DNA of 54,468 nt from Nitrospinaceae bacterium. Its GTDB lineage: Bacteria; Nitrospinota_A; UBA7883; JAJDBK01. Shown here piece after piece: positions 14,142 to 50,550 of this stretch. The position numbers were made by a program, and so were the translations under genes. The stretch lies in assembly GCA_029261405.1 (NCBI GenBank), contig JAJDBK010000069.1, positions 1 to 54,468 of the forward strand, in the 5' to 3' direction. The notes beneath the pieces were generated by a model. The model did not search any database, was not told where the DNA came from, and worked only from the letters and a program-made list of their open reading frames with translations. The first letter of the stretch is position 1; the number at the start of each line of letters is the position of its first letter.

Positions 14142-14663
14142 ATGTCAAAAGACACTATCCTGACAGCGGTGGGGCTGATCGTTGTGGCTCTCCTTATCGC
14201 AGGGGATGTCGGGCTGGACCTCGGTTCCGGAGGTTCCCTCGCTCATATACTGATAGAGGGCGCGATCTTTCTTATGGCCATAGGCGGTCTCGGAGTTATG
14301 GTACGCCGCTATTTCGCCATGAGAAAGGAGCGGGAGAAACTGCTCTTTACGTTGGCAAAATCGAGAGAGGACGCAATATCGTGGAGGCGAGAGGCGGAGA
14401 AGTATTTAGACGGACTCGGCGTCGCTATCGACAGCCAGATGAGCAAATGGAATTTCACTCTGGCTGAAAAAGAGATCGGACTCCTGATTCTGAAAGGATT
14501 CAGTTTTAAGGAGATAGCCGCTCTGCGAAACACAAGCGAACGAACTACAAGACAACAGTCCCTCGAAATTTATCGAAAATCGGGATTATCGGGGAGGGCG
14601 GAGTTTTCCGCTTTCTTTCTCGAAGATCTTCTGTTGCCTACCAAACGGAACGAGGAGTTATAA
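14142..14663 (+). CDS. Membrane-anchored LuxR-type HTH regulator
   Basis: The 173-residue protein has two N-terminal membrane helices (residues about 8-25 and 33-53), a basic helical linker, and a C-terminal LuxR-type helix-turn-helix: LAEKEIGLLILKGFSFKEIA, ALRNTSERT and IYRKSGLSGRAEFSAFF. Small two-helix membrane regulators with this NTSE-x-T...IYRKAGVSGR motif are a known but poorly characterised group. No receiver or ligand domain is visible. Its stop overlaps the convergent TRAP-type gene by 6 bases. Confidence 0.75.
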   Translation: MSKDTILTAVGLIVVALLIAGDVGLDLGSGGSLAHILIEGAIFLMAIGGLGVMVRRYFAMRKEREKLLFTLAKSREDAISWRREAEKYLDGLGVAIDSQMSKWNFTLAEKEIGLLILKGFSFKEIAALRNTSERTTRQQSLEIYRKSGLSGRAEFSAFFLEDLLLPTKRNEEL

Positions 14664-15827
14664 ACCCTTCGCCTCCATGTAGGCTCGTTCACTCATTTTC
14701 GTCCACGGTTCCACCTTCCGTGAAAAAGCCATAAACGCATCGTGAACTTTCTTCACTTTGGGATTGGACTCGACAAGCTCAGTCATGGTTTCATCCGCCA
14801 AACCATGCAACCCGCGCAAAACTTCGTCCGGGAACTTTATGAGCTTCACTCTGTATTTATCGACCAGAACTTCGAGCGCTTCACCGTTTCTGGAGTCAAA
14901 CTCAGCTAGCGCCCTGACGTTAGCTTCCGTGGAGGCGGCTGTAACGATGGCTTGCAGATCTTTTGGCAGACTGTTCCACGCTTTCGAGTTGATGATCAGT
15001 TCAATCACCGAACCAGGTTCATGCCAGCCCGGATAGTAGTAATATTTGGCCGCCCTGTAAAAGCCGAGTTTCATGTCGTGGTACGGTCCCGCCCACTCCA
15101 GAGCGTCCAAAACACCCCGTTCAAGGGATGTATAAAGCTCCGATGCGGGTAGCAGGACAACATTAACACCGGCTTTGTTCATGACTTTGCCGCCGAGACC
15201 CGGTATCCGCATCTTCAGCCCTTGGAGATCGGCCATGGTTTCGATCTTCTTGTTGAACCAGCCTCCCATCTGTACACCTGAGTTTGCTATGGGAAAAGCC
15301 ACCAGATTAAAAGGGGCGTAGACATCGTTCCAGACCTTCTGGCCTCCACCGTAATAGAGCCATGCGTTCATCTGCTGGGCGGTAAGCCCGAACGGAATCG
15401 CCGTGAAAAACTGCGCTTCGGGAGCCTTGCCGGCCCAGTAGTAGGCGGCTCCGTTCCCCACCTGCACGGTTCCTGAACTTACAGCGTCGAAGACAGACAG
15501 GGGCGGCACAAGCTCACCTCCGGCAAAGACATCTATCGAGAGGCGCCCTCCACTCATCAGTTTAACCTTGCGAGCGAAATCCTCCGCGCCGGTCTGGAAT
15601 ATAGGAAACCTCGGCGGCCAGGTGGTGACCATTCTCCATCTGAATTTTCCTGAGGCGTGCACAGCGGGGGCTCCCGCTATGGCGCCAACCGCTCCCGCGC
15701 AGACAGCGCCAATGGCGCCACCAATGAAATCTCTTCTTTTTACCTGTTTATCACAGGTTGAGTCGCTTGTAGCGGAGTCACGATCCTTAGGAGAATCGTT
15801 TTCCACAGGGCAATTATCATCAACCAT
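14658..15827 (-). CDS. TRAP-type solute-binding protein with Tat signal (DctP family)
   Basis: The 389-residue protein has an unusually long N-region, then RRDFIGGAIGAVCAGAVG (twin arginine at residues 31-32) ending AVHA near 58. It is therefore probably a periplasmic protein exported folded. The mature part has DctP/TRAP features: FAGGELVPPLSVFDAVSSG, GWFNKKIETMADLQGLKMRI with the usual substrate-carboxylate Arg, and LYTSLERGVLDALEW. No DctQ or DctM membrane subunits lie nearby. It begins one base after the stop of the REC-HisKA gene, so it may serve sensing, or a permease encoded elsewhere. Confidence 0.88.
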   Translation of the reverse strand: MVDDNCPVENDSPKDRDSATSDSTCDKQVKRRDFIGGAIGAVCAGAVGAIAGAPAVHASGKFRWRMVTTWPPRFPIFQTGAEDFARKVKLMSGGRLSIDVFAGGELVPPLSVFDAVSSGTVQVGNGAAYYWAGKAPEAQFFTAIPFGLTAQQMNAWLYYGGGQKVWNDVYAPFNLVAFPIANSGVQMGGWFNKKIETMADLQGLKMRIPGLGGKVMNKAGVNVVLLPASELYTSLERGVLDALEWAGPYHDMKLGFYRAAKYYYYPGWHEPGSVIELIINSKAWNSLPKDLQAIVTAASTEANVRALAEFDSRNGEALEVLVDKYRVKLIKFPDEVLRGLHGLADETMTELVESNPKVKKVHDAFMAFSRKVEPWTKMSERAYMEAKGL

Positions 15828-15828
15828 T

Positions 15829-16503
15829 TCAGGGATCTAAGCTGTCGATCGACTGTTCCAGATCAACCATCTCGCTATCGGTCAGATAATCTGTCGCTAC
15901 TACTTTTGATATCCTGTTTACCTTGACCATAATCTCCTTGATTCTGATAGAGAGGGCGAGGGTATTCTTGAGGATCTCATCAATTTCTTCCTTTTCAAGG
16001 GTTTCCCAATCCTGCATCAGTTCCATGCTACCGATTATGCCGGTTAGCGGATTGTTAATTTCATGCTGGAGCGTAACGGCCATCTTCAGGGCCACATCGA
16101 CCTCTCTGCGGTCGGCTAGTTCACTTTCGAGAGCTTTAATACGAAGATGGGCCTGGACCCGCGCCAGGAGTTCGTCAGGGTTGAACGGTTTTGTTATATA
16201 GTCGTTGGCGCCGATGTCCATACCATAAATCTTGTCGGCCATCTCACTTTTTGCAGTAACCATGATTACCGGAATAAACTTGGTTTTCTCATCCGACTTG
16301 ATCTTCTTGCATACATCAAAACCGTTTATGCCCGGCATCATTATGTCGAGTAGCACAAGATCAGGAGGTTCCCTTTTGATCTTTTCGAGAGCGTCCATAC
16401 CGTTGGAGCTTATCTCTATTTTGTACCCTTTTCTTTTGGAGAGGGCCATCTGCACAAGGAGAGCGATGTTCGGGTCGTCATCAACGATCAGTATTTTGCT
16501 CAT
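15829..16503 (-). CDS. Response regulator with HisKA-like domain but no ATPase domain
   Basis: The 224-residue protein has an N-terminal receiver domain: acidic pair DDD at 8-10, phosphoacceptor Asp53 in LVLLDIMMPG, and Lys105 in TKPF. A short coiled linker leads to a dimerisation/phosphotransfer-like H-box, TLQHEINNPLTGI, with His147. The chain then ends without any HATPase (N, G1 or G2 boxes). It could be a phosphotransfer protein, a kinase that borrows an ATPase, or a decayed hybrid. It is tightly linked to the downstream TRAP-type gene. Confidence 0.85.
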   Translation of the reverse strand: MSKILIVDDDPNIALLVQMALSKRKGYKIEISSNGMDALEKIKREPPDLVLLDIMMPGINGFDVCKKIKSDEKTKFIPVIMVTAKSEMADKIYGMDIGANDYITKPFNPDELLARVQAHLRIKALESELADRREVDVALKMAVTLQHEINNPLTGIIGSMELMQDWETLEKEEIDEILKNTLALSIRIKEIMVKVNRISKVVATDYLTDSEMVDLEQSIDSLDP

Positions 16504-16567: not shown

Positions 16568-18097
16568 TTAAAAATTTAATAATCTTGCAATTTTATTGGG
16601 GTCGTGGAGGAAAAACGGGTAGTCCCGGGCGGTGGCGGTCTGCGCCTCCTTTTCGAGTTCGACAATTTTTTCAAGCTCGGCGTTCAATCGACAAGTGGCG
16701 TTCGCAAACGCCGCCCCCATAGCTGTGTTAAGTTCCGAGATCGATAGCCCTATACTTTTTTTGTCGCTCTCCTGTCTTGCGATCATGACCACGAGTTCTC
16801 TCTTTTTTTCTATCAGCCCTGAAATATCGTAATCGGCAAGTTCGGCCACCTTTTCAGGACGCATCTTTATATCGCGCAACTTTTCCCTTAATTCGGTGGG
16901 CGAAACGTCAAAAGGCGTCGTTTTGATACCGCAGGAGATGGAGGCTGAGACACAGGCGTAAGCGGGTGGTGTGATCTGGTAAAAGTCCCTGATGATAGCG
17001 TCGGTGACCGAGTCGTACTTGGCGCCACCTACTCCATGCAGGAAATAGTCGCAAACGAAAAGCCGCATGAACATCGAAAGGGTGATGGCTCTTGGGCGTA
17101 TCCTGATCCCGCCTGACTTCAGATCATAAACGGAAAAAACTCCCCCCCCCTCACCCCGTAATTCGGAGTGACCCTCTCTTTTTCGGACATACAGCCGTTC
17201 CCGTCCCAGGTCGGTCACTACCCAGAAAGGAGCTTCCCGCCAATCCCCTTCAGACTTGAGGTCGGGGAATGGATTGGCTTTGTATCGGAGTTTATGAGCT
17301 TTCCGATATTTATCGAGGTTTCCGTTGAAGATAGTGGTGAAATTTTCGATCCGTTCAATAATATCGAGCGCATATACGATGAAAGACTCGCTTGCGCAGA
17401 TCATCGATACCGGGATTTCATATGGTGATGTAGTCTGGTCCAGCCAGACCCTTCGCATGGCGATAGCCATAGAGGTGAAATCATCTTGCGGCAGATCTTT
17501 TGTTTCGAGTTTGGCGATAAACCGTTTCAGGGCCGTCACCGGTTTTTCCGACATGTCTCCTTCCATCTGGTTGGCAAGGGAGCGCAGATTAAAAAGCAGA
17601 CTCTCTTTGTCTGGAGATACCGCGCTCTCGAAGACGGTTTTCCCTGTTTGAGGAAAAAGTATATGCGCTTCTCGAACAAGTCTTCCGTCTCTCTTAACCG
17701 GCGCAGAAACGGTCTCGGCGCTGAATTCGTCAAAATCGACACTGATGAAAAGAGTATTTGCCAATAGCCGTTTCGATATTTCGGTGAGCGCCATGGTTTT
17801 CAGGGCAATTCCTGGATGAAACATCGATGGCTGGTGACCAGAGGCTACTACGGGCGCATTAAGATCCGGTTCGGAAGGAGCGGGGTTTGTTCCCAATCTT
17901 CTTGTGTAGTCAAAGGCCAGGGAGAGTATCTCCTTGCGGGCGAGGAGAGCGAGGTCGGCCATTTTCGTATCACCCACTACCGTATTCCGGCTCATCGACA
18001 TGTTGCATGCTATCTCGTTTTCGTATCGTGAAAGCTCGGGAACGAAAAGCGTCTCACCGTTCCTTTCAGGAACAGCGAACAGGTCATGTCTTTTCAT
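16568..18097 (-). CDS. Unknown 509-residue protein, possibly distant BshC (bacillithiol ligase)
   Basis: A soluble 509-residue protein without clear catalytic motifs. VVASGHQPSMFHPGIALKTMAL near residue 88 resembles the TGQQ..LF.GP..T..K region of BshC, the cysteine-adding enzyme of bacillithiol synthesis. The size also fits, and a C-terminal helical, coiled stretch is present (GLIEKKRELVVMIARQESDKK, LNAELEKIVELEKEAQ). The next gene upstream encodes a BshB-type deacetylase, and the two coding regions touch (1-base overlap at 18097). That context is the main reason for the suggestion. The match by eye is weak and the call could be wrong. Confidence 0.45.
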   Translation of the reverse strand: MKRHDLFAVPERNGETLFVPELSRYENEIACNMSMSRNTVVGDTKMADLALLARKEILSLAFDYTRRLGTNPAPSEPDLNAPVVASGHQPSMFHPGIALKTMALTEISKRLLANTLFISVDFDEFSAETVSAPVKRDGRLVREAHILFPQTGKTVFESAVSPDKESLLFNLRSLANQMEGDMSEKPVTALKRFIAKLETKDLPQDDFTSMAIAMRRVWLDQTTSPYEIPVSMICASESFIVYALDIIERIENFTTIFNGNLDKYRKAHKLRYKANPFPDLKSEGDWREAPFWVVTDLGRERLYVRKREGHSELRGEGGGVFSVYDLKSGGIRIRPRAITLSMFMRLFVCDYFLHGVGGAKYDSVTDAIIRDFYQITPPAYACVSASISCGIKTTPFDVSPTELREKLRDIKMRPEKVAELADYDISGLIEKKRELVVMIARQESDKKSIGLSISELNTAMGAAFANATCRLNAELEKIVELEKEAQTATARDYPFFLHDPNKIARLLNF

Positions 18098-18783
18098 CAG
18101 CGGATGATATCTCTTGTATCCGCAAGACCGAGCGGTTCCCGGGCCTTTATCGGCTCCCCGTAAGTGATCCCGATCATCTCGCCGTAGAATCTTCCCGCAG
18201 TCTCGATTTTGTTCAGAATCATCTCTTCGTTACCGGTGGCGTGGAATTGGGATCGGTAACACTTTATCGCTTCGATTTTCGTGGCGAAGGTCTCTGTCAC
18301 ATCGAGGATAAAGGTTGGGTCGAACAGGCTGGCAAGGTGCGACGCATTGTAGTCGAACATTTTTTTCGGGTACCAGGGGGCGCCTCTCATTTCAGTTTTG
18401 GTCAGTTTGGCGTCGAATCTTGCCTTGAAACATATTTGTGAACCGGCAAGGTGGTCCGGGTGGGCGTCTATAGACCCGTGAATGAACAGAAGGTCGGGTT
18501 TCAACTCCCTGTAGACTTCGGCGACCGCTCTTCTCGACTCAACGGTTTCTGTAAGGGTCCTGTTCGGCAGGCCCAGGTTGATTCTGGTTGTAACTCCCAG
18601 GACAGAAGTGGATCTCTTAGCCTCCTCAGCGCGGGTTACAGGGTCGCCGAAAGGGGTCGGTTCACCGTTGGTAAGATCGAGAATCGCTACGTCATACCCC
18701 GCCTTAACCCACTTTGCAACAGAGCCGCCGAGACCCAGCTCTACGTCGTCCGGGTGAGTTCCGACGACAAGGATACTGGACAT
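18097..18783 (-). CDS. LmbE/PIG-L-type deacetylase, BshB1-like
   Basis: A 228-residue zinc N-deacetylase of the LmbE/PIG-L family. Zinc ligands sit in GTHPDDVELGLGGSV (His and Asp) and IHGSIDAHPDHLAG, with LDLTNGEPTPFGDPVTRAEEA between. This GEPTP..G....R..E pattern is typical of BshB1, which removes acetyl from GlcNAc-malate in bacillithiol synthesis. Related enzymes act on other GlcNAc conjugates. Its start lies inside the end of the glycosyltransferase gene (43-base overlap). Confidence 0.8.
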   Translation of the reverse strand: MSSILVVGTHPDDVELGLGGSVAKWVKAGYDVAILDLTNGEPTPFGDPVTRAEEAKRSTSVLGVTTRINLGLPNRTLTETVESRRAVAEVYRELKPDLLFIHGSIDAHPDHLAGSQICFKARFDAKLTKTEMRGAPWYPKKMFDYNASHLASLFDPTFILDVTETFATKIEAIKCYRSQFHATGNEEMILNKIETAGRFYGEMIGITYGEPIKAREPLGLADTRDIIR

Positions 18784-19469
18784 TTCTCAAGCTCAAGTTC
18801 CAGAACCCGTTTGTAATGTTCGTATCGCAGGCCCGCGTCATCTAACACGCCTCCGAAAGAACGGTCGAGGTTCTTGTATATTCTCGGGACGGCTACCTCT
18901 GATACTGCAAATCCGAGACGCCACGCCTGGATCCAGAACTGTAGTGGCATCGCGTATCCTGGTTCCGTTAGCGCCATTCGGGCAAGAGAGCTTACCCTGT
19001 AACATTTCAACCCGCAAAAGGCGTCGGTCAGGTGGTACCCGGTAATCTGGTTGACCTGTTCGGTGATTTTCATGTTTATCAACCTGCGCTCTTCCGGCGC
19101 ATTGTCGTCTTCACGGTTTTCCTTTAGGTAGCGGCTTCCGGAGAGGATGTCGAGATCTTTCAAGCCATCAAGCAGGACGGGGATCAATCGTGGTTCGTGC
19201 TGTTCGTCACAATCGATGGTGACCGCTTTGTCGTAGCCGTTTTCGATGGCGTACTGAAAACCGCCGATTAACGATTGACCGTAGCCCCTGTTATTCTTGT
19301 GCCTGATTATCTCGATGGTGTCGAATTTTTCGAGAACCTCGCTGGAGCCATCGGTAGAGCCATCGTCTACAGCCAGCAGATCACCATTATGAAAATGACG
19401 AATCCGCTCAAGAACCCTGGCAAGGGCCGGGACTTCGTTGTAGACAGGAACAATAACGATATTTTTCAT
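18741..19469 (-). CDS. Family 2 glycosyltransferase, polyprenyl-phosphate type
   Basis: A 242-residue GT-A enzyme of family 2. It shows VPVYNEVPALARVLERI, AVDDGSTDGS, NRGYGQSLIGGFQYAI and the metal-binding TIDCDEQHEP (D-x-D-like), close to dolichyl- or undecaprenyl-phosphate sugar transferases. Unlike many bacterial relatives it has no C-terminal membrane helices. It heads the run containing the LmbE deacetylase and the BshC-like protein. Family 4 BshA is not what is seen here, so it is not the standard first enzyme of bacillithiol synthesis. Confidence 0.85.
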   Translation of the reverse strand: MKNIVIVPVYNEVPALARVLERIRHFHNGDLLAVDDGSTDGSSEVLEKFDTIEIIRHKNNRGYGQSLIGGFQYAIENGYDKAVTIDCDEQHEPRLIPVLLDGLKDLDILSGSRYLKENREDDNAPEERRLINMKITEQVNQITGYHLTDAFCGLKCYRVSSLARMALTEPGYAMPLQFWIQAWRLGFAVSEVAVPRIYKNLDRSFGGVLDDAGLRYEHYKRVLELELEKCPVSLSSELTRTT

Positions 19470-19497: not shown

Positions 19498-19959
19498 TTA
19501 ACTGTCGAATGACGCCTCTACGACAAACGCATGTCCTTCCACCGTGAACGGGATGGCAACCACCGGACCCTTGGTGATGCTCTCAATCTCGTGGTTCGGC
19601 CCGGTAACTATATTCGGAATACCGGCTTCAAACATTATCCCCGCTTCGGCAAGCTGTCTCCTTGCGTCTCCCGATATCATGTTTGTCAGTTCGCCAACAG
19701 CGTCCTTGACATCATCGTTCATCTCGGTGTACTCCGTGCCGAGCATACTGCCGACAATCTTGCAAATGGCCGCAGAGGAGAACGAAAGAACGACAGAACC
19801 CCTTTTATGACCAGTCATCCCTATCACACCGGAGATATCCCCGATGGCCGCCTTGTCTTTCTTGAGGTAAGGTTTTCCGGCTATGGGAGTAAGCATCGCC
19901 ATCATGGAAATAACGTTGACAGTCCCCTTCAGGAAAGGATTGATATATTCCGATTTCAC
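19498..19959 (-). CDS. cheX: CheX-type chemotaxis phosphatase
   Basis: A 153-residue protein of the CheC/CheX/FliY phosphatase fold. The catalytic helix shows GELTNMISGDAR with Glu90 and Asn93, the ExxN pair that positions water for CheY-P dephosphorylation. IGMTGHKRGSVVLSFS and VEGHAFVVEASF are the flanking strands. Only one ExxN helix is visible, as in CheX rather than CheC. No cheY lies next to it. The chemoreceptor at 22744 is the nearest taxis gene. Confidence 0.85.
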   Translation of the reverse strand: MKSEYINPFLKGTVNVISMMAMLTPIAGKPYLKKDKAAIGDISGVIGMTGHKRGSVVLSFSSAAICKIVGSMLGTEYTEMNDDVKDAVGELTNMISGDARRQLAEAGIMFEAGIPNIVTGPNHEIESITKGPVVAIPFTVEGHAFVVEASFDS

Positions 19960-20516: not shown

Positions 20517-21911
20517 TTAGGCGGCTGTGGTGTCGTTTTGCTTCATATCCCGCTCCCTGTCTTCGGAATGGATAGTGGGCGGAATATAGCCCTTCTCAGT
20601 TTCCGAAAGACGTTCTGACAGGGTCAGAAGGTCGAGGCCGTCCATCTCTTTTTCCATGGCGCCCCGCATGTTGGCGAGAACACCGCGCAGAAGTTCTCTC
20701 GCCGGATCAACAGGCTCCGGAGCCACGCTTAACGATTCTCCGCTCAGGCTCATCAATACATCGGTCACATGGATCGACTCGGGTGGTTTGTTCAGCAGAA
20801 ACCGACCGGAGGAGCCGTCGATGATTTCCACCAGGTCGAGTTTTTTGAGTTTACGAACGATGTCGTCGTAGAATTCGCTGGTTATTTCCAGCTTTTTAAC
20901 CAGATATTTCGGATCGACCGGTCCCGATCCAGACTCGAATGTCCAGGTAGCTTCGATCAGGATTCTTAACGAGAAGTAGTTGGAATATTTTATCCTGTCG
21001 AAACCCTCGTCCTTGGACGATTTTATCTCCTTGGGGTATTGAATCGCATAGGCTATTACGGAGCCTAGCAGAACTATAACCCAGGTTAGATAGAGCCAGA
21101 ACAGGAATATCGGAATGGTAGCCAGAGCGCCGTAAACAGCCGTATATGTAGCAAAGTTTGTAAGATAAAAGTTAAAAGCGTTTTTCGCCACCTCGAAGAG
21201 AAAAGTGGCCACCACAGCCCCGGTGAGGGCCGGTTTAAAATAGACCGTTGTGTATGGAATCAGCTTGTATACAAGAAAGAACGCTACCCAGGTCAGCAGA
21301 TATGGTATCGCTTGCAGAGTGAAACTTTGGATATATGTGTATTGCGCCCACTCTTCACTTAATACGATGTTCTGGACCCGGGCGGCCAGAATAATGGAGA
21401 GAGCGATCAGGATCGGGGTGAATGTTACCGAACTCCAGTAGGTCACGAACTGGCTTATCAGCGGTCTTGAACGGCCAACTTTCCAGATCATATTGAAGGA
21501 GTATTCTATGGTGGAGAGTACCCATACCGCGAAGATGACGAGGAAAATCACACCGAACACGGAGACGGAAGCGGCGTTAGAGGAGAACGACTCGATGTTC
21601 TCCTCGATAATTCCAGCCAGGTCCTTGTTCGGCAACAACCGCTGAAAGAAGAAGTTCAGTACGGTCTTTTTCGACATTTCGAAGGAGGAGAAGATCGACA
21701 GGCTTATGGCCATCAGCGGCGCTAATGCCAGCAGGGTGGTGTACGCCAGCGATGAAGCGTACATCAGGCAGTCGTCTTTCCAGAATTTCTCGCCTATTTC
21801 GTAGACGAGTTTTATCCTCCATGCGCTCCACTTGATAATGACCGACTTCTCTTCAAGGTCGGTCTGCAGAACTTTTACGATCCTGTCATAAAGCGCGTTT
21901 GACTGGCTCAT
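20517..21911 (-). CDS. YihY/BrkB-family membrane protein with C-terminal winged helix
   Basis: A 464-residue inner-membrane protein of the YihY/BrkB family (historically mis-annotated RNase BN). Conserved family segments are visible: ASSLAYTTLLALAPLMAI, LVIFAVWVLSTIEYSFNMIW, VYGALATIPIFLFWLYLTW and WVIVLLGSVIAYAIQ. There are about six membrane helices. The last 150 residues form a soluble domain resembling a winged helix (YLVKKLEITSEFYDDIVRKL, KKLDLVEIIDG). Function is unsettled, and roles in transport or stress have been suggested for the family. Confidence 0.85.
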   Translation of the reverse strand: MSQSNALYDRIVKVLQTDLEEKSVIIKWSAWRIKLVYEIGEKFWKDDCLMYASSLAYTTLLALAPLMAISLSIFSSFEMSKKTVLNFFFQRLLPNKDLAGIIEENIESFSSNAASVSVFGVIFLVIFAVWVLSTIEYSFNMIWKVGRSRPLISQFVTYWSSVTFTPILIALSIILAARVQNIVLSEEWAQYTYIQSFTLQAIPYLLTWVAFFLVYKLIPYTTVYFKPALTGAVVATFLFEVAKNAFNFYLTNFATYTAVYGALATIPIFLFWLYLTWVIVLLGSVIAYAIQYPKEIKSSKDEGFDRIKYSNYFSLRILIEATWTFESGSGPVDPKYLVKKLEITSEFYDDIVRKLKKLDLVEIIDGSSGRFLLNKPPESIHVTDVLMSLSGESLSVAPEPVDPARELLRGVLANMRGAMEKEMDGLDLLTLSERLSETEKGYIPPTIHSEDRERDMKQNDTTAA

Positions 21912-50079: not shown

Positions 50080-50550
50080 TTACGATCCTGTTCCCCAGAT
50101 GGACGGGGGTTTGATGCCGTTCATGCGGGCGTATACCCATGCCTGTCCACGGTGATGGACTCCCTCCTCCCATGTCCAGTCAAGCATGGCATCCACAGTC
50201 ATTTCCGGGCCGCCCCATGGGGGGGTAAAGGAATACGATGTAATGGTTTCAGGTTTTGACAACAGGTAGTCGCGAAACATTTTCCAGCCGTTGCGCAACT
50301 GCTCTGATGCGTGTTTTCCGTCACTGGCAAGATTTTCCCTGTATATTTCCGGAAACCCGTGATCGGGGTTGCCATCGATCAGTCGAGTAAACACTACCCA
50401 GTGTGTGGCCGGATGTGAGACGAGATAGAGCCACGGCATGGAGTTTTCCGAGGGTTTGAACTGGATTTTATCATCCGGTATCTGTTCTGCGGCCTGAGCC
50501 AGATGCTCAACGATAGTCTCGTAACACTCTGTAAATTTGACAATATCCAT
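50080..50550 (-). CDS. DinB-like four-helix protein
   Basis: A 156-residue DinB/YfiT-superfamily protein. The spaced metal histidines are visible in LVSHPATHWVVFTRLIDG and WTWEEGVHHRGQAWVYARMNGIKPP. These small helical bundles bind a divalent metal, and some act as thiol-dependent transferases (for example using bacillithiol). Its substrate is unknown. It lies 98 bases downstream of dinG on the same strand. Confidence 0.82.
   Translation of the reverse strand: MDIVKFTECYETIVEHLAQAAEQIPDDKIQFKPSENSMPWLYLVSHPATHWVVFTRLIDGNPDHGFPEIYRENLASDGKHASEQLRNGWKMFRDYLLSKPETITSYSFTPPWGGPEMTVDAMLDWTWEEGVHHRGQAWVYARMNGIKPPSIWGTGS

Follow-up and report, generated by a model that had tools for sequence, protein, structure and literature searches.

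The window (the whole stretch of 54,468 nucleotides that was analysed) contains three genes on the minus strand which, in the order of their transcription, encode a family 2 glycosyltransferase (GT2), an LmbE/PIG-L deacetylase, and a protein of 509 residues that we refer to as protein C. The coordinates of the genes and of the motifs discussed below are collected in Table 1. Adjacent genes of this run, from here on called the module, overlap or touch: the GT2 frame runs 43 nt into the deacetylase frame, and the frames of the deacetylase and C meet in the sequence TGATG, with one base in common. The first-pass annotation had described a tight run of these three genes headed by a GT2 enzyme, and we find all three frames at the positions it gave and a clear GT2 domain in the first.

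Table 1. Genes and motifs of the module in the window
Feature	Positions	Strand	Size	Assignment or counterpart
GT2 glycosyltransferase	18741..19469	-	242 aa	PF00535, 5.5e-22; proposed first enzyme replacing BshA
LmbE/PIG-L deacetylase, BshB1 equivalog	18097..18783	-	228 aa	TIGR04001; PF02585, 1.4e-21
Protein C, putative distant BshC homologue, proposed cysteine-adding enzyme	16568..18097	-	509 aa	Structure and profile comparison
GT2 metal/donor motif DCDEQH, residues 86-91	19197..19214	-		PfDPMS 89-DADLQH-94
GT2 acceptor-site R128 and N132	19074..19088	-		Positions of PfDPMS R131 and S135
C motif GHQPSMFHPGIALK, residues 87-100	17798..17839	-		BshC TGQQxGLFxGPLYTxYK
C motif RLFVCDYFLHGVGGAKY, residues 345-361	17015..17065	-		BshC RPxxQDxLLPTxAYVxGPGEIAY

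Several other genes were noted in the window. A CheX-like protein is encoded directly upstream of GT2 (19498-19959) and is found near the module in several relatives too. The module is followed, at 14658-16503, by genes for DctP, a solute-binding protein of the TRAP type, and for a response regulator that has a HisKA-like domain; homologues of this regulator occur close to the module in several relatives belonging to the same order. The frame at 20517-21911 joins a BrkB-type membrane protein to a C-terminal Rrf2-like regulator domain, and a DinB-superfamily protein (50080-50550; PF05163, 3.7e-8) is unlinked to the run; it might conceivably be a thiol transferase, but nothing ties it to a thiol.

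The glycosyltransferase and the deacetylase

By both sequence and fold, the module GT2 groups with dolichyl-phosphate mannose synthase (DPMS), ArnC, and GtrB, its nearest solved relatives being DPMS and ArnC. Glycerate and phosphoglycerate glycosyltransferases, the acceptors of which are small acids, appear further down among the fold matches. The alignment of 34 members of the GT2 family has a mean column identity of 56%, which is above the 39% obtained for C, and Asp-86, Asp-88, Gln-90, and His-91, as well as Arg-128 and Asn-132, are invariant in it. When GT2 is aligned to PfDPMS (5mlz), Arg-113 and Arg-128 are the counterparts of PfDPMS Arg-117 and Arg-131, and PfDPMS Ser-135 is replaced by Asn-132, a replacement seen throughout the family alignment. 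The roles of these PfDPMS residues, including that of Ser-135 in holding the acceptor phosphate, have been described (PMC5526996). The retention of the DPMS motif and arginines, together with the change of Ser-135 to asparagine, suggests that GT2 is likely to bind its donor as DPMS does and that its acceptor may be different from that of DPMS. By analogy with its family, GT2 would be expected to use an inverting mechanism. Overall, the module enzyme resembles DPMS, ArnC, and GtrB in its GT2 fold, its DxDxQH motif, and its acceptor-site arginines but differs from them in that it is short (242 residues) and without the membrane part of PfDPMS, in the residue at the position of Ser-135, and in its partners, which are BshB1 and a putative BshC homologue.

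The deacetylase scores 195.8 bits against the BshB1 model (TIGR04001), above the curated cut-off of 182.5, which confirms the resemblance to BshB1 proposed in the first-pass annotation. It is far from both MshB and BshB2 (MshB score of 29.7 versus a cut-off of 224) and is the sole match to the BshB1 family in the source genome.

Protein C and its relationship to BshC

When compared with Pfam and NCBIfam, C matched no family, and no BshC model was found at E ≤ 1. The BshC model (TIGR03998) had no match in the source genome, and the relatives of C had no BshC match in Pfam either. Single-sequence searches of Pfam, NCBIfam, and the PDB with C gave nothing useful, and a search of PDB sequences with its profile returned coiled-coil noise only. 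A likeness of C to BshC, as had been suggested from the DNA, was thus seen only by structure and profile-profile comparison. The AlphaFold model of C is confident (pLDDT of 91.5), and a Foldseek search with this model returned B. subtilis BshC (4WBD) as the sole PDB match with E < 0.001 (E = 2.8e-13). The match spans nearly the whole chain, with TM scores of 0.56/0.54, and class I tRNA synthetases come next among the fold matches (E of ~3e-3). The comparison of the C profile with 23 canonical BshC proteins in hhalign gave a probability of 82% (E = 1e-5), which rose to 96% (E = 4.5e-9) when C was sampled more broadly. The C/BshC profile score was 53.7, compared with 25.8 or less in controls with reversed profiles and 30 column shuffles. 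Further, 13 positions are both conserved and identical in the C and BshC families, compared with 0.7 on average and at most 4 in shifted alignments; this last control is to some extent circular, since those columns had also served to optimise the alignment, and the shuffles are the fairer control.

The alignment of 23 relatives of C, from which its mean column identity was obtained, contains two strictly kept motifs, GHQPxxFHPGVxxK and RLFxxDxFIHGxGGAKYD. Seven of the nine BshC invariants (Gly, Gln, Lys, Asp, Arg, Gly, and Tyr) are kept in C; Gly-87, Gln-89, and Lys-100 align with BshC Gly-95, Gln-97, and Lys-110, and Arg-345, Gly-355, and Tyr-361 align with BshC Arg-340, Gly-356, and Tyr-362. 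The other two are changed (Glu-359 to Gly and Arg-383 to Val), and the identity between C and BshC is ~13%. From the fold match and the profile comparison with its controls, we conclude that C is, as judged by sequence and modelled structure, a very distant homologue of BshC that lies outside the curated BshC family. The mechanism of BshC has been described as unknown, and its in vitro activity was unproven as of a 2015 review (PMC4360819). C, being so distant from BshC and having a conserved active-site pattern of its own, may help to explain this mechanism.

We also noted two very divergent C-like proteins (L125:6092-7489 and L126:5240-6622), in which SHQP replaces GHQP. Neither has an adjoining GT2 or BshB1 gene, both genomes carry BshB1 elsewhere, and the two proteins perhaps form a branch of their own, the third, within the BshC superfamily.

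Distribution of the module and of canonical thiol genes

C is present in 20 of 24 Nitrospinota genomes, the source genome included, and in 11 other sampled genomes. In each of the 33 distinct loci whose C resembles that of the window, the gene immediately upstream of C, or of the BshB1-C pair, is GT2; this count excludes L125 and L126. These loci come from Nitrospinota, Planctomycetes, and other lineages, and BshB1 sits between GT2 and C in 25 of them. The order GT2-BshB1-C is identical in all 19 loci retrieved from Nitrospinota relatives; outside Nitrospinota, the full run was found in six loci, and in eight more (five of them titled Planctomycetes) C directly follows GT2; GT2 is always upstream. 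Because this order is repeated across the 19 Nitrospinota loci and also in other lineages, the three-gene run is far beyond chance. When all neighbouring frames were clustered, no family besides GT2, BshB1, and C recurred across lineages. A BshB1 match was found in 22 of 22 module genomes (two of which have the divergent C-like form only) and was above the cut-off in 20, counting unlinked copies such as those in Planctomycetes; on inspection, no shared thiol genes were seen around these unlinked BshB1 genes of Planctomycetes or around YpdA. In one locus (L124:4991-7278, genome G077), BshB1 and C are split across frames by decay or sequencing error.

With regard to the canonical genes, no protein of the source genome (3.27 Mb, 99.5% complete) reaches the cut-off of the BshA model (TIGR03999, GT4 family), the best GT4 protein scoring 94.9 bits versus 273.7. 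At a threshold of 1e-60, BshA was not found in any of 19 module genomes, in contrast to three control genomes carrying BshC, which do match. Canonical BshC was found in 0 of 21 module genomes, and the 25 of 145 sampled genomes with a BshC match show no overlap with those that carry C. The glutathione synthetase domain PF02955 is absent from the source genome; among 21 module genomes, one has a strong match and seven have weaker matches, which are probably to RimK-like proteins because B. subtilis and archaea match too. Most module genomes are thus without glutathione synthetase as searched for with PF02955.

YpdA/Bdr is the bacillithiol disulfide reductase. It scores 443.2 bits in the source genome and 415 bits in genome G001 (cut-off of 339.9), and these are the only 2 of 20 module genomes in which it is above the cut-off. 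Because it is missing from the 18 others and also from a genome with canonical bacillithiol genes (G032), we regard YpdA as a patchy marker. In the source genome, YpdA/Bdr is encoded on another contig (L167:7937-8905, contig C20), with no thiol gene recognised nearby. The bacilliredoxins BrxA/B were not found in module genomes, a marker that is uninformative because two canonical bacillithiol genomes (G032 and G081) are also without them.

A proposed variant of bacillithiol synthesis

Bacillithiol is a small sulphur compound with a protective role in bacteria. We consider it probable that the three genes together direct the synthesis of a low-molecular-weight thiol of the bacillithiol type, with GT2 replacing BshA and the divergent homologue C replacing BshC. 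In the first step, GT2 would act in the place of BshA and move an N-acetylamino sugar onto a small acceptor; the donor would probably be UDP-GlcNAc, giving GlcNAc, and the acceptor could be malate or a comparable acid. The deacetylase, as expected of a member of the BshB1 family, would then strip the acetyl group and free the amine, to which C, by its homology to BshC, would couple cysteine. Genomes that carry YpdA/Bdr would use it to reduce the disulfide form of the thiol. If GT2 inverts like its relatives, the product would be the beta-linked isomer, and the thiol may then be related to bacillithiol rather than identical with it. Several observations favour this reading: the BshB1 assignment, the fold and profile match of C to BshC, GT2 recurring upstream of C with no further family around the loci, a BshB1 match in every module genome examined, the lack of canonical BshA and BshC in module genomes, YpdA/Bdr in two of them, and the lack of PF02955 in the source genome. 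We infer this donor, acceptor, anomer, and amino acid, as well as a role of the product as a thiol buffer.

The proposed pathway shares with the BshA-BshB1-BshC pathway its three-step logic, consisting of a glycosyltransferase, a BshB1 above the cut-off, and a third enzyme with the BshC fold, and YpdA/Bdr is found in two module genomes. It departs from that pathway in starting with a DPMS-like GT2 where the canonical route has a GT4 enzyme, and in a third enzyme, C, that escapes the BshC model. Its genes also lie tightly together, unlike those of B. subtilis, where bshC belongs to another operon (PMC4360819). Because two of its three enzymes fall outside the canonical families, we describe the module as a variant of bacillithiol synthesis and not as bacillithiol synthesis itself. 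We count against a thiol product that the nearest known GT2 relatives transfer sugars to polyprenyl phosphate and not to malate, that YpdA is so rare among module genomes and BrxA/B is absent, and that two BshC invariants are changed.

The main rival to a thiol is a lipid-linked amino sugar, for which GT2 would make polyprenyl-phosphate-GlcNAc, the BshB1-like enzyme would deacetylate it, and C would add an amino acid, resulting in decoration of the envelope. The ArnC/ArnD logic provides a model for such a pathway, DPMS, ArnC, and GtrB are the closest relatives of GT2 by sequence and fold, and the metal motif and the two acceptor-phosphate arginines of PfDPMS are present in it. However, the phosphate-binding serine is an invariant asparagine in the GT2 family, no partner such as a flippase or a GT-C transferase is seen repeatedly beside the module in different lineages, and BshB1 and BshC, to which the deacetylase and C are related, are both known for a soluble sugar. 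Given also the YpdA of two genomes, we consider a lipid-linked product unlikely.

An amino acid conjugate of a sugar that is no thiol buffer, either because C adds an amino acid other than cysteine or because the product is a secondary metabolite, appears more doubtful still. Sequence cannot tell which amino acid C adds, and the two altered invariants would fit such a change; against this, the module is widely kept across lineages without the recurring partners expected of a metabolite cluster, it occurs where the canonical bacillithiol genes and mostly also glutathione synthetase are absent, and two genomes have YpdA. The first-pass annotation had left room for ordinary bacillithiol synthesis with bshA elsewhere in the genome, which would make GT2 a bystander. 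The presence of a BshB1 above the cut-off, a BshC homologue, and YpdA agrees with this, and GT4-family proteins do occur in the source genome, but the best of them falls far short of the BshA cut-off, none of the 19 module genomes has a BshA match at 1e-60, and GT2 is better conserved than C and always upstream of it. We therefore regard ordinary bacillithiol synthesis as highly improbable; of the options in the earlier reading, it is the other, a variant pathway headed by GT2, that we favour.

More specifically, the module may give Nitrospinota, Planctomycetes, and other lineages a previously undescribed cysteinyl-glucosamine thiol that has a beta linkage, an acceptor different from malate, or both, a proposal that we advance tentatively. 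We did not find this gene set described in searches of the open literature, which took in only a minority of subscription journals and preprints. According to a 2018 survey, no low-molecular-weight thiol has been documented or predicted in Planctomycetes, Verrucomicrobia, and Spirochaetes (PMC6282198). The module offers named genes for this gap in Planctomycetes, and also for Nitrospinota, so that the proposal is open to a direct test in cells and mutants. A survey that looks for BshA-C with Blast-style searches would overlook it.

N-Methyl-bacillithiol synthesis (BshA-C plus NmbA) is likewise a variant of the bacillithiol pathway in other phyla but adds a methyltransferase to canonical BshA-C, whereas the module would replace BshA and BshC (PMC6282198). 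The mycothiol pathway (MshA-MshB-MshC) also consists of a glycosyltransferase, a deacetylase, and a cysteine ligase. However, MshA is a homologue of BshA and not a GT2 enzyme, the module deacetylase is far below the MshB cut-off, and C matches BshC far better than it does the class I tRNA synthetases.
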